The translations under genes and the position numbers were made by a program. Under the pieces are notes generated by a model. The model did no database searches, was not told where the DNA came from, and was given only the letters and a program-made list of their open reading frames with translations. This document shows, one piece after another, positions 4,668-26,938 of a DNA stretch of 27,139 nucleotides; positions within the stretch are counted from its first letter, which is position 1; the number at the start of each line of letters is the position of its first letter. Source of the stretch: Gracilaria vermiculophylla (Eukaryota; Rhodophyta; Florideophyceae; Gracilariales; Gracilariaceae); the NCBI GenBank assembly GCA_019155205.2, contig JAHNZQ020000004.1, positions 3,206,068 through 3,233,206 on the forward strand, read 5' to 3'.

Positions 4668-5234
4668 GGGTCTATAGCTTAAGGGTTAGAGCGTACGCGT
4701 GTGACATGATATGTACTTTGTAATTTTTAATATATTGCTTAGTCCTCGTATTGTCTTAAGATACGAATTAATTTTTTATATAAGTGAAAATCTTATCATT
4801 TTAAGCTTGAATGCAAAATTTAATTTATGATTTTTATCAAAGCTAAATTAAATTAGTAAATTTATTGAGTACATATAGAAACTTGTTGAAAATATCTTAA
4901 CTCTAAAAATGAAAAGATGATGTTAAACTTAATAGCGTGCATTAAGTTTAAGCTTAAAAATATCTCAGGTATAAAACAAGGCTCTACAAATTTAAAATAT
5001 AAAAAATTGAAACATGAAATTGAGGAAAAATATAGAAGCGAATGTTTTTTTGTAATGAAAAAAATATGCTTATTATATTTTATATCAGTAAACTAACTAC
5101 TACATGAAAGCTGTATGATAAGAAATTATCACGTACAGTTTTAAGCAAAGATATATTTTTAGTTATGTCTAAATGAATATATCGATTGTAACTTGATAAG
5201 CGTAAAGTTGATTGTTCGAATCAATCTAGACCCA
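4668..5234 (+). tRNA. trnI(gau): tRNA-Ile (GAU), split by a group II intron
   Basis: Exon 1 (4668-4698) holds acceptor GGGTCTA, the D arm and the 5' side of the anticodon stem, TACGC. Exon 2 (5193-5234) holds loop TTGATAA with anticodon GAT, the 3' stem GCGTA, T arm TTGATTGTTCGAATCAA and acceptor TAGACCC. Joined, they give a complete cloverleaf. The intron interrupts the tRNA exactly between the anticodon stem and its loop. The gene sits between nad5 and nad4. Confidence 0.95.
4699..5192 (+). other. Group II intron in tRNA-Ile, no ORF
   Basis: 494 bases. It begins GTGTGAC, fitting the group II 5' consensus GUGYG, and ends GTAAC, fitting the terminal AY. A domain V hairpin is visible at about 5107-5145: AGCTGTATG ... 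GAAA-type loop ... CACGTACAG, with the expected AGC triad and bulge. It is followed by a domain VI-like stem (GATATAT / ATATATC). No maturase ORF is present, so splicing would need proteins supplied from elsewhere. A group II intron in this tRNA is known from florideophytes such as Chondrus, and it helps assign the lineage. Confidence 0.9.
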
Positions 5235-9872: not shown

Positions 9873-9981
9873 TTTTTAACTAAAAAAGTAGATATTAAAT
9901 ATCTGATCCCATGCCGAACTCAAACATAACTCTATCTTTGCTAAAACTACTATTTTTATGGAATTCTTAGACAGTTAAAAA
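9873..9981 (+). rRNA. rrn5: 5S ribosomal RNA
   Basis: The conserved 5S core GATCCCATGCCGAACTC occurs at about 9905-9921; bacterial 5S has almost the same string at the helix II-III junction. The ends TTTTTAACT (9873-9881) and AGTTAAAAA (9973-9981) pair over nine bases as helix I. AGATA (near 9890) and TATCT (near 9933) can form helix II flanking the core. At about 109 bases it is slightly shorter than bacterial 5S (about 120). The distal part (helices IV-V) is divergent. The gene fills the nad3-rps11 gap, with 9 and 2 bases to spare. The uL5-like gene at 909 would encode a 5S-binding partner. Confidence 0.87.
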
Positions 9982-15156: not shown

Positions 15157-15975
15157 TTATATTCCGCCTCATCAATAAATAGATACAAATAAAAATAACC
15201 AAACGACATCCACAAAATGTCAATATCATGCTGAAGATTCAAAACCAAAGTGATGCTCTTGAGTTAATTGATATTTTAATAAACGTATTAAGCAAACACA
15301 TAAAGATATTGTTCCTATTAAAACGTGAAATCCATGAAATCCAGTTGCCATATAAAATGTAGACCCATAAATACCATCTGATAATCTGAAATCCGCCATA
15401 TTATACTCATAGGCTTGCAATAGAGTGAAAATAGTTGCTAAAAGTACGGTTAACGTTAAACTAAAAATTGCTTGCCTTCTAAGATTTGCTACTAATGCGT
15501 GATGGCATCACGTGACTGTACAACCAGAAAGTAATAAAATTAAAGTGTTCAGAAAAGGGATTTCTCAAGGATCTAAAACGCTAATTCCTTTAGGAGGTCA
15601 CGTTAAACCTATTTCTACTGTAGGAGCTAAACTACTATGAAAAAACGCTCAAAAGAAAGCAAAAAAAAACAAAATTTCGGATATAATAAATAAAATTACA
15701 CCATAACGTAATCCTTGTTGAACTATTCCTGTATGATGACCCTCAAAAGTAGCTTCTCTGATGACATCACGTCACCATACAAACATTGTAGTGAATAACA
15801 TAAAAAATCCACATATTAATATAATGCTTCCCTGCTTATATGCATGCATATACATCACCCCTCCTACAGCGCACGAAAAAGCAGATAAAGATGCAACAAA
15901 TGGTCAGGGGCTAGGGTCTACTAGGTGAAAAGGATGTCGTTGCACAGACTTTGATACTTGTGATAAATAAATCAT
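15157..15975 (-). CDS. cox3: Cytochrome c oxidase subunit III
   Basis: 272 residues with seven membrane segments, a core subunit of complex IV beside Cox1. It starts [26 protein letters not shown], with the conserved [12 protein letters not shown]. Further blocks are [63 protein letters not shown] and the C-terminal [23 protein letters not shown]. Many Trp codons are UGA. It starts 2 bases after the small TatA-like ORF. Confidence 0.99.
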
Positions 15976-15977
15976 AG

Positions 15978-16106
15978 TTATTTTAAAAAGTTTTTAAAAA
16001 ATTGCTTTGTTAATTCTATCGATTTTTTTACTATTGTAAAATTTGTAGAAAAAAGAATAAAAAAAACTAATAGTAATACGACTACTTGTGATAAAGAAAA
16101 CCGCAT
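15978..16106 (-). CDS. TatA-like 42-residue ORF between cox2 and cox3
   Basis: It reads MRFSLSQVVVLLLVFFIL, then FSTNFTIVKKSIELTK, then QFFKNFLK and a TAA stop. The layout is that of TatA/MttA, the pore subunit of the twin-arginine translocase: a few N-terminal residues with S.SQ, one membrane helix (about 8-19), a hinge at the place of the usual LFG (here LFS), then a basic amphipathic helix ending in a K..FK-type pattern. TatA is normally longer but its tail is dispensable in length. The ORF starts 4 bases after the cox2 stop and ends 2 bases before the cox3 ATG, the same tight packing as real genes nearby. tatC is in the same genome. The hinge Gly is replaced by Ser. The alternative is an unrelated small membrane protein or a chance ORF. 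Confidence 0.6.
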   Translation of the reverse strand: MRFSLSQVVVLLLVFFILFSTNFTIVKKSIELTKQFFKNFLK

Positions 16107-16110
16107 TTCA

Positions 16111-16902
16111 TTACTCGTTTAATTTGTTTGAAATTCATGAAATATAATTAGATAGTTTTACAGCTTCAATAACAATTGGCATAAATCCATGATTTATACC
16201 ACATATTTCACTACATTGACCATAATAAACGCCTTCTCTTTTGATAAAAATAGATGTTTGATTTAAACGACCAGGTACCGCGTCACATTTTATTCCTAAA
16301 GAAGGTATTGCTCAACTATGAAGTACATCCGCCGCAGATACAATAACACGAATATGTGTGTTTGTAGGTACTACCATTCGGTTATCTACTTCTAATAATC
16401 TTAGTTGTCCTAAATTCAAGTCTTCTTCTGGGATCATATAACTATCATACATAATAGACTCTCCTTCTTCGCTTAAGTAGTCCGAGTATTCGTAACTTCA
16501 ATATCACTGATGTCCCAAGGTTTTTATAGTAATAGCTGGCGATATTATTTCATCCATAGCATACAAAAGCGAAAATGAGGGTATTGCGATAATTAATAAA
16601 ATACAAGCAGGAGTAACTGTTCAAATAATTTCAATTAAAGTTCCATGGGTTAATGAGGAAGGTATATTATTTTGTGTGCTTTCGAAATGTCATAATGTAC
16701 GAATTAACATTCATGAAACAAATATAAAAATAACACAAATAAAATACATTAAATCATGATGTAAATTTATAATACCCTCCATAATAGGCGTAGCCGGGTC
16801 TTGAAAACCCAGCTGTCAATTTTCTGCAGCATCATTATACGAGAAAACGCTTGATGTAAATATAAATAAAGAAAAAGTTATAGATTTTAAGTTATTCAAC
16901 AT
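16111..16902 (-). CDS. cox2: Cytochrome c oxidase subunit II
   Basis: 263 residues. It holds the CuA centre that accepts electrons from cytochrome c. There is an N-terminal hydrophobic stretch (residues about 8-20, possibly cleaved), then two membrane helices (about 50-115). The intermembrane-space domain has the aromatic GHQWYWSYEYSD motif, [21 protein letters not shown] and the CuA site [15 protein letters not shown] (C, C, H, M ligands present). One base separates its ATG from the cox1 stop, so cox1 and cox2 must share a transcript. Trp is often UGA. Confidence 0.99.
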
Positions 16903-22821: not shown

Positions 22822-23420
22822 CTCTAGTCCTTTTTTTACTATAAATCACCATTTTTAAAAAGTAATTTTCAAATAAAATAAATTCCCATAGCGTGACGGG
22901 CGGTGTGTACAAAACCCGAGAACATATTCACCGTAACGTTCTGATTTACGATTACTAGCAATTCCAACTTCATATTTTCGAGTTACAGAAAACAATCCGA
23001 ATTTTAATTTACTTTTTGAGAGTTGCTTGAACTTGCATTTTTGCTTCTTTTTGAATAAATTATTGTAGCACATGAAAGTAGCCCAATCTATTAGGGTCAT
23101 GAGGACTTGACGTCGTTCCTTCCTTCCTTTAAGATATCTTTAACAGTTTATATTCAAAAATATAGAAGAGTTTTGTCCGTTTATTGGAATGAACCAAACG
23201 CTTCACAGCACGGACTGACGACAGCCATGCAACACCTGTAATATATTCAAAGATTGGTAAGATTTCGCGCGTATTATCGATTTAAACCACATGCTCCACT
23301 GCTTGTGCGGGTTCCCGTCAATTCCTTTGAGTTTTAATCTTGCGATCGTAGTTCCCAGGCGGAGCGTTTCACGCGTTAGCTATATTTCTGAGTAATCAAA
23401 AATTAACGCTCATCGTTCAG

Positions 23421-24150: not shown

Positions 24151-24210
24151 TTGTTTTTCTGTTGTTTTTCTAACTATCCCAATTTATACTGTTGAGTAAA
24201 AACAAGATTT

Positions 24211-24417
24211 TCATTGAATTAAACTGAAAGTTACACCACTTTCCGTAGAAATTAATTCAGCCAAAACTTTTTTATTTAATAATATGTTTTCTGTTGAAAT
24301 AAAAAAACTAAATAAGTTGTATTTTGATGTTAAAATGCGTATATGATTAATACTTTTTCTTCGAAAAGCACGTTTTTTGTTTTTACGACTTTTTGTTTTT
24401 AAAAGTTCTGTTTTCAT
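24211..24417 (-). CDS. rpl20: Ribosomal protein bL20
   Basis: 68 residues, a large-subunit assembly protein. The part KNKKRAFRRKSINHIRILTSKYNLFSFFI matches the bL20 block (KR..FR.LWI.RIN......G..YS.FI), and the end NKKVLAELISTESGVTFSLI matches the L.RKVLADLA..D...F..L tail. It is shorter than bacterial bL20 (about 118) because the basic N-terminal extension is mostly missing, as in other mitochondrial copies. It lies upstream of the SSU rRNA, a position also known in florideophytes. Confidence 0.88.
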   Translation of the reverse strand: MKTELLKTKSRKNKKRAFRRKSINHIRILTSKYNLFSFFISTENILLNKKVLAELISTESGVTFSLIQ

Positions 24418-24602: not shown

Positions 24603-24971
24603 TTAATTTTTTTTGCTGCCATATTTCGACCGACTTTGTTTTCGAGTATTTACCCCTGATAAATCAAAAGAACCTCTTACTAAATGATATTTCACCCCGG
24701 GTAAATCTTTAACTCGCCCTCCTCGAATTAAAACTATTGAATGTTCTTGTAATACATGACCTTCCCCAGGAATATATCCCGTAACTAATTTTCCTGTACT
24801 AAGTTGCACTTTAACAACTTTACGTTCTGCTGAATTTGGTTTTTTAGGATTCATGGTAAAAACTTTTAAGCAGACGCCTTTTTTTTGAGGACACTTCTCT
24901 AAAGCTGTAGATTTAGTTTTTCGTATTTTTTTTTGTCTATATGATTTTAATAATTGGTTAAATGTCGGCAT
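24603..24971 (-). CDS. rps12: Ribosomal protein uS12
   Basis: 122 residues, a decoding-centre protein of the small subunit. It begins MPTFNQLLK; the blocks [73 protein letters not shown] and the basic tail are all canonical, including the PKKPNSA and GRVKDLPG loops. The start overlaps the end of tatC by 25 bases in a different frame. The stop directly touches tRNA-Glu. Confidence 0.99.
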
Positions 24972-25714
24972 GGTTTATTAAACTCTTTATTATGTAATTT
25001 ATAACAAACTAACAAAAAAACTATCTCAAATATGCTAAATATCAGCATAATCAACAAAAATTGTAAAAAACCATCTGGAGGGGTTAATAAAAATAATATA
25101 CATAATATTACAAATATCAAAGACTTACGATAATGTTTAATTAAAAAATAAATTTGACTTATTTTTAGTAAAACTCAAGCATGGCGTAATAACAAAATTC
25201 CTAAAAAAGTGAAAGAACTTATCGAGTAACGAAATACAACTACTCATTGTATGTAACTTATAATTCTAAATTCAACCAAAATTGTAAATAAATGATTATT
25301 TTTTATTTCTCATTTTGTTAGTATATATAAAATAGATGGTAAGAAAAAGACATATACTAAACCTAAACTAATCAAGGCGGCAATAAAAGAAATATTAAAT
25401 GATTTTAAAAAAAATTTGAGTTGATATACGTATCAACCAGAGCTACTGAACTTATAAATATGAAAAGTTCAATAAGGAAAAACAAAAAAAGCGGATTTAG
25501 ATATAATTAAAAATCAAGCAACGTCAAACAAATCCATTACATTCGTAAGGATAAATTTTTTTGTTTCAAATTTTACGAAAGGGTAAGTTTCAAAAAAAAT
25601 TAAATAATATATGTTTAAACTAGCAATGGCAATACAAAACAGAAAACTTAAACTTACATAAAATAATCGGAAAAGTAGTTCTAAAGAATATATAAAAGCA
25701 AGCTTTTGGAACAT
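24947..25714 (-). CDS. tatC: Twin-arginine translocase subunit TatC
   Basis: 255 residues with about six membrane segments. TatC recognises folded Tat substrates; in mitochondria the likely client is the Rieske protein. The N-terminus [12 protein letters not shown] resembles the cytosolic HL.ELR.R motif. The segment [24 protein letters not shown] (about residues 80-104) corresponds to P...YQ.W.FI.PGLY..E.K; the usual Glu appears as Gln here. Near the C-terminus [24 protein letters not shown] matches the conserved TPPD...Q..L..P...LYE. Six or more UGA codons encode Trp. It overlaps rps12 by 25 bases. Also called ymf16 or secY-like in red algae. Confidence 0.95.
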
Positions 25715-26808: not shown

Positions 26809-26938
26809 GGAGGGGTTTTCCCCTTATATAGGTGTTTTTTTTGCATAGGTCCCCCAAAGTTGGCACTGAACGCGCGTTCAGTGCCAACTTTGGGGGACCT
26901 ATGCAAAAAAAACACCTATATAAGGGGAAAACCCCTCC
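26809..26938. repeat. Perfect 130-bp palindrome, 65-bp arms (copy B)
   Basis: Centre between 26873 and 26874. It is the same as copy A, but the right flank continues CCTCC and pairs with GGAGG on the left, so the arms are five bases longer. This longer form may be the intact one and copy A the form trimmed at its right edge. Confidence 0.95.

Follow-up and report, generated by a model that had tools for sequence, protein, structure and literature searches.

Does the short spacer between cox2 and cox3 in the mitochondrial genome of Gracilaria vermiculophylla hold a gene and, if so, does that gene encode a TatA-type partner for the TatC of the same genome? Marker papers treat the spacer as non-coding (e.g. 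PMC3527623, in its accessible part, and PMC3483259). The first-pass annotation had instead placed a hidden tatA there. Our material was the whole stretch of 27,139 nucleotides, hereafter the window, which is a florideophyte mitochondrial genome whose ends repeat each other over about 505-510 bp, like a circle read past its start, and which has N on both of its flanks within a 5.16-Mb source scaffold. We conclude that the open reading frame (ORF) in the spacer is real and very probably coding, and we consider it likely, with appreciable room for doubt, that this protein gene specifies a very short mitochondrion-encoded TatA.

A reading frame in the cox2-cox3 spacer

The spacer measures 135 bp, and translation of its minus-strand positions 15978-16106 with table 4 yields a protein of 42 residues, MRFSLSQVVVLLLVFFILFSTNFTIVKKSIELTKQFFKNFLK*, running from an ATG start to a TAA stop (15980-15978), with 4 nt separating the cox2 stop from the ORF and 2 nt separating the ORF from the cox3 ATG (Table 1). 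The earlier description of a 42-codon ORF that fills the spacer was thus correct in coordinates, code and leftover bases; the ORF lies on the same strand as cox2 and cox3. Tight packing is typical of this genome, in which 40 of the 48 inter-feature gaps are of 54 bases or fewer, and the packing of the spacer ORF agrees with it.

Table 1. Coordinates in the window of the candidate gene, its neighbours and other features named in the text.
Feature	Position	Strand	Remarks
cox2	16111..16902	minus	ATG at 16902, stop 16113-16111; upstream neighbour of the spacer ORF
cox3	15157..15975	minus	ATG at 15975; downstream neighbour of the spacer ORF
candidate tatA	15978..16106	minus	42 codons plus stop, code 4, ATG start; fills the cox2-cox3 spacer
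residues 2-19 of candidate TatA	16050..16103	minus	polar start (S4, Q7) and membrane helix ending at F19
residues 25-42 of candidate TatA	15981..16034	minus	basic amphipathic helix
tatC	24947..25714	minus	Pfam TatC 8.1e-10; several database records label it SecY
rpl20	24184-24417		
small-subunit rRNA	includes 22855-23100		

Two kinds of evidence bear on whether the frame is more than an accident of composition. When the 135-bp spacer was put through 20,000 dinucleotide shuffles, an ATG-initiated ORF of 42 codons or more appeared three times on the coding strand (11 times when either strand was counted). The mean codon log-odds of the ORF over a dinucleotide background is 0.065 bits/codon, compared with a median of 0.146 bits/codon for windows from true genes (n=243), 64 of which lie below the ORF. 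Among ten small genes scored singly, five score lower (tatC, at 0.014, atp8, sdhC, atp4 and rpl16) and five higher (sdhD, rpl20, rps11, rps12 and rps3). In either of two wrong sense frames of genes none of 243 windows reaches the score of the ORF, and in three non-protein gaps a single window among 100 overlapping ones does, but the score has to be read with caution, since 92 of 243 windows in one antisense gene frame attain it. The one Rfam match to the spacer was to a miRNA and is attributable to chance (E 0.3; 19.7 bits vs. a gathering score of 62.6), and its fold z-score of -0.43 indicates no stable RNA fold. A structured RNA in the spacer was ruled out on these two results.

Other parts of the window hold features that are easily overlooked. 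The nad3-rps11 gap (120 bp) contains a weak 5S rRNA match at 9875-9980 (22.8 bits vs. a gathering score of 38), and the annotations of Ahnfeltiopsis and Grateloupia place rrn5 between rps11 and nad3, so that a gap in such genomes has already proved to conceal a gene. A group II intron piece lies at 5106-5192 in the nad5-nad4 gap (610 bp), and a 147-codon ORF of no assigned identity at 909-1352 may correspond to orf142, orf159 and orf173 in the annotations of other red algae. The window ends carry perfectly self-complementary stretches at 391-510 (120 bp) and 26809-26938 (130 bp), adjoining short tandem repeats, and these are perhaps the stem-loop reported at a transcription boundary in other red algae (PMC3386957).

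Spacer lengths could be compared with four other red algae, which are all the species for which a length was found, and these range from 131 to 170 bp: 131 bp in Fushitsunagia, 170 bp in Ahnfeltiopsis and 144 bp in Grateloupia turuturu (published tables), and 167 bp in Porphyra spiralis, where the accessible part of the source gives the same length for all 40 individuals. Measured from the cox2 start to the cox3 start, the distance is 927 bp in the window (16902 to 15975), 929 bp in Fushitsunagia, 932 bp in Ahnfeltiopsis and 942 bp in Grateloupia. The accessions are OR045827 for Fushitsunagia, PQ685980 for Ahnfeltiopsis, OQ972988 for Grateloupia and FJ147587-FJ147626 for Porphyra spiralis; red-algal mitogenomes are also published for A. 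chilense (MZ336082) and Gracilariopsis andersonii (KX687878). Long gaps are not unusual per se, as other gaps of more than 100 bp occur in the latter three genomes (up to 607, 580 and 650 bp, respectively). For Kappaphycus and Eucheuma, the accessible part of PMC3527623 describes 29 of 29 sequences of four markers as 'continuous and easily aligned', reports 20.8% informative sites for the cox2-3 marker vs. 20% for cox2, and finds fewer indels across taxa in cox1 and cox2 than in the cox2-3 spacer marker. The excess of indels that this implies for the spacer is not favoured by a conserved frame. Spacer length and marker data together fit a constrained element only in part, and they prove no reading frame.

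A cox3 scan of the viral contig collection confirmed no relative; a cox1 scan found five loci, 46-58% identical and not red-algal in look, one of which alone had a cox2 match (36%); and in a scan of the genome contig collection for relatives, 80 among the matches listed carry bacterial titles. Nothing close to the cox3 DNA turned up in the plasmid collection. Within the source assembly the cox2-cox3 region has 12 matches, and the window alone covers the spacer. The ORF itself found no match in a protein database search, a weak result, since a single candidate shared a word with the query.

We weighed these observations against the possibility that the spacer is non-coding (a promoter, a processing signal or leftover DNA) and that the ORF is a chance open frame. 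Such a reading would accord with the practice of the marker papers, with the implied indel excess and with the failure to match any annotated homologue, but it sits poorly with the rarity of such an ORF among the shuffles and of such codon use in the non-protein gaps, with the absence of an RNA family or stable fold, and with spacer lengths of 131-170 bp in the four other red algae. We regard it as improbable, and retain the view that the spacer ORF is a protein gene.

Likeness to TatA

The predicted protein carries residues at the spacing of TatA: S4 falls on the serine, Q7 on the polar residue and F19 on the hinge phenylalanine, counterparts that we take to be important in TatA. The N-terminus is short and polar and leads into a single membrane helix that carries a polar residue close to position 8; a basic tail comes next. 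Over residues 20-42 this tail has a moment of 0.47 and a net charge of +4 (1.2% of 20,000 shuffles are equally amphipathic), and over residues 25-42, a stretch picked after inspection, a moment of 0.63 (0.35% of 20,000 shuffles); for the six of the 18 reference TatAs that were measured, the moment is 0.345-0.42 and the charge +3 to +5. At the hinge, F19 is kept and the glycine is replaced by S20, while FG is present in 18/18 reference TatAs, and the AlphaFold2 single-sequence model is a confident, unbroken, straight helix over residues 5-41, without a hinge. A PDB fold search with this model gave no match, a result of little weight for a single helix. The order of parts first claimed for the protein is right as to the S.SQ polar start, membrane helix and basic amphipathic tail; the hinge is not visible in the model.

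Curated family models make no claim on the protein. In Pfam, PF02416 gave no match at E≤10, although HMMER filters discard most weak matches, and ExbD (0.17) and HemY_N (0.53) matched weakly. In NCBIfam the matches were ArlF (E 0.11), TatA_Rickett (NF047942; E 0.12) and PRK01470 (TatA; E 0.19), all of which start at residue 1, with bit scores far under the cut-off (12.1 vs. 90 for TatA_Rickett and 11.4 vs. 71 for PRK01470). Beside alphaproteobacterial TatA, as represented by PF02416, NF047942 and PRK01470, the spacer ORF protein is thus alike in its residues 1-21, which are in register, and in the basic amphipathic helix that follows, and differs in lacking the hinge glycine and the long acidic tail and in scoring below every curated cut-off.

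We built a TatA profile of our own from 18 alphaproteobacterial TatAs, excluding 12 TatB-type proteins among 30 loci, and on it the spacer ORF protein scores 11.4 bits, a figure that, like the other profile figures, is descriptive and no clean test because the TatA idea arose from the same sequence. At least 11.4 bits were reached by 2 of 20,000 random AT-rich Markov ORFs (2/1,427 of those with an N-terminal membrane helix) and, among shuffles of the protein, by 9/20,000 when shuffled in two segments, 245/20,000 in four segments and 0/20,000 in full. The ORF ranks first among the 102 window ORFs of at least 30 codons (next, 5.9 bits), and all 411 ORFs on other mitochondrial contigs score below it (best, 9.9 bits). 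Short ORFs in bacterial loci reached its score in 2 of 3,080 cases, both from one AT-rich Pelagibacter locus (13.1 and 12.3 bits) and neither TatA by eye. When 138 ORF N-termini with a membrane helix were scored (from bacterial and a few IMG/VR loci), 17 reached the score of the spacer ORF; by reading, these comprise 15 TatAs, largely profile members, and 2 TatBs, and the best non-Tat N-terminus had 9.9 bits. True TatBs obtain 2 to 15 bits on the TatA profile, so that 11.4 bits is what a distant relative would score.

The match is confined to the N-terminal half of the protein, positions 3-20 of our profile aligning with residues 2-19. In hhalign, residues 1-21 aligned with TatA in register from residue 1 (probability 61%, P 7.9e-5, a P value that is too favourable because 1/600 segment shuffles equals the score) and gave TatB 0.4%. 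The TatB profile returned 0.3 bits for the spacer ORF, a value reached by 5% of Markov ORFs on a profile that is not specific. TatB in place of TatA was ruled out on this profile score and the hhalign result.

The same protein might be a real small inner-membrane protein other than TatA (e.g. a lineage-specific respiratory-assembly protein or an unknown one), its TatA look stemming from the general plan of a membrane helix and a basic tail in an AT-rich genome. The silence of the curated families, a match limited to residues 1-21, the lost glycine and straight modelled helix, and the two Pelagibacter ORFs that outscore the candidate all suit this explanation. Against it stand the scarcity of equal scores among random AT-rich ORFs with a membrane helix, the in-register match to TatA and not TatB, and the presence of tatA in the same slot in cryptophytes (PMC5910586, in its accessible part). 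We judge this alternative unlikely, though with a real share of the probability, and prefer TatA.

TatC and the nuclear Tat genes

The proposal that the same mitochondrial genome encodes TatC was borne out (Table 1). Its 24 red-algal homologues comprise 22 from organisms named Gracilaria, Gracilariopsis, Hydropuntia or Gracilariophila and 2 from Grateloupia, and the protein is well conserved: when the window sequence is set beside 23 of these homologues (a chimeric one being left out), 39 positions are invariant in all 24 sequences. The nr SecY of Gracilaria chouae looks chimeric by eye, its start resembling the TatC of Gracilariopsis chorda and its remainder being identical to the window TatC. 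The structure model of TatC was poor (pLDDT 53.6) and was set aside.

We aligned 25 red-algal reads with 27 bacterial ones. The bacterial set includes duplicates, fragments and at least three non-TatC frames, and bacterial reads were used only for sites that are plain in individual rows. F89 of the window TatC aligns to the F94 site and is F in 25/25 red-algal sequences; Q98 aligns to the EcTatC-E103 site and is Q in 25/25; and at the E/Q170 site of TM4, at least 90% of red-algal sequences have F170, with E or Q in four bacterial rows. We assume here the E. coli TatC numbering and roles of these sites, namely F94 as signal-binding, E103, and a polar residue at TM4 position 170. With the hinge glycine absent from the candidate TatA and the E103 and TM4 sites changed in TatC, a red-algal system, if working, would be unusual on both sides.

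These departures could also mark a decaying tatA, once functional and now drifting because red-algal TatC acts alone (the TatC-only type). The lost glycine, the extreme shortness of the protein and the lost polar residue of TatC TM4 point that way, as do the repeated losses of tatA in diatoms (PMC12412971) and the Ka/Ks of secY (taken as tatC), which at 0.39 is the highest of 23 genes in Gelidiales (PMC5064358). A drifting gene would, however, hardly be expected to keep an intact frame fitted to the spacer within 4 + 2 bases, gene-like codons, and a tail more amphipathic than 98.8% (residues 20-42) or 99.65% (residues 25-42) of shuffles. We consider decay very improbable.

A nuclear TatA directed to the mitochondrion had been named in advance as a finding that would tell against an organellar one. 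An exon-by-exon search of the assembly for PF02416 found two loci (C14 and C27) and no third. By eye their proteins look like plastid-type TatA and TatB/Hcf106-type, respectively, which we presume to be the right types; the best matches of the C27 protein are in Gracilaria domingensis (61% over the full length) and Agarophyton chilense (74% over 79%). With two PF02416 genes that are plastid-type by eye, the organellar proposal was not overturned, in what is a weak test, since a mixed assembly was searched one exon at a time. Searches for proteins linked to a possible substrate gave 7 matches for Rieske and no match for BCS1, the alternative Rieske route, for which the controls were likewise silent.

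The source assembly does look mixed, the contigs concerned being C2, C6, C16, C17, C19 and C20. Its high-scoring TatC genes number four (plastid or bacterial), a further three TatC genes, one of them in the window, have in-frame TGA, and other mitochondrial sequences share 65-72% identity with the window along extended stretches. The mixture probably stems from epiphytes or other algae.

The cryptophyte slot and a candidate TatAC

According to the accessible part of PMC5910586, cox2-tatA-cox3-rpl12-rpl7-rps19 is one of twelve synteny blocks of cryptophyte mitochondria, and the window, with cox2, the ORF and cox3 all on the minus strand, matches this tatA slot known from other mitochondria. The block is not among the two described there as common to all cryptophytes; breaks in it are described in Cryptomonas and also between Hemiselmis and Chroomonas (blue-green lineage), where cox2 has moved. 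The same part of that source contains a 16-protein mitochondrial tree that unites cryptophytes with red algae, which its authors term curious. The cryptophyte gene thus shares with the spacer ORF the place between cox2 and cox3 and a tatC in the same genome, and differs in being annotated as tatA and in belonging to a block that is broken in some species; the two were compared by gene position alone, and from position we infer that they are homologous. This gene order came to light once the profiles had been run, owes nothing to the ORF itself, and is the main reason for the odds that we give to TatA. Hemiselmis orf45, whose name implies 45 codons vs. 42 in the spacer ORF, has marginal similarity to Rhodomonas tatA (PMC2397417, in its accessible part), so a mitochondrial TatA may be equally small and equally hard to recognise.

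The first-pass annotation had described mitochondrial TatA as recognised mainly in jakobids, a picture now outdated, as the accessible part of PMC6251230 also lists it in cryptists, ochrophytes and Ancoracysta. There the two-part TatAC of the jakobid Andalucia godoyi is described as mitochondrion-encoded and as partly complementing E. coli, an assay in which components of other mitochondria gave no rescue. The red-algal pair would resemble it in that TatA and TatC are both encoded in the mitochondrion; it differs in that this part of the survey, where it lists lineages with TatA, does not mention red algae. Plant mitochondrial TatB, per the same text, is likewise a TatA-type partner to a mitochondrion-encoded TatC, but it is nuclear and longer, and the spacer ORF protein fails the TatB profile, a comparison made with bacterial TatB.

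For the idea of a TatA-type partner, then, the cryptophyte slot and an N-terminus that is TatA and not TatB speak in favour, while scores under the curated thresholds and a missing hinge glycine speak against, and on account of these last two points formal membership in TatA is not established. If the assignment is right, the candidate TatA would be anchored in the inner membrane through its one N-terminal helix, with its basic amphipathic helix lying against the matrix face, and would form a two-part TatAC translocase together with the mitochondrion-encoded TatC. Such a TatAC would presumably carry proteins in their folded state through the inner membrane, starting from the matrix side, and the literature proposes the Rieske protein as a candidate substrate (PMC6251230, in its accessible part).

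Among the titles and abstract openings listed in a literature search, none reports tatA from red-algal mitochondria, though an earlier report is possible. The red-algal mitogenome papers checked for the word do not mention tatA, the mitochondrial gene list of Porphyridium lacks tatC (PMC8742464), and the accessible main text of the Tat survey PMC6251230 contains neither 'red alga' nor 'rhodophy'. Tentatively, and at a little under even chances, we suggest that most mitochondria of florideophytes and bangiophytes carry an unannotated tatA in the cox2-cox3 slot. If this is true, cox2-tatA-cox3 is an old gene cluster common to red algae and cryptophytes, which would supply a gene-order character shared by their mitochondria and would explain the similar length kept by the cox2-cox3 gap. 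The supposed 'TatC-only' status of red algae would then be an annotation artefact, and red algae would have a Tat system of two parts, not TatC alone. Most of the cox2-3 spacer, a widely used marker, would be protein-coding, and population studies would need to analyse it as a reading frame under selection, not as a neutral spacer.
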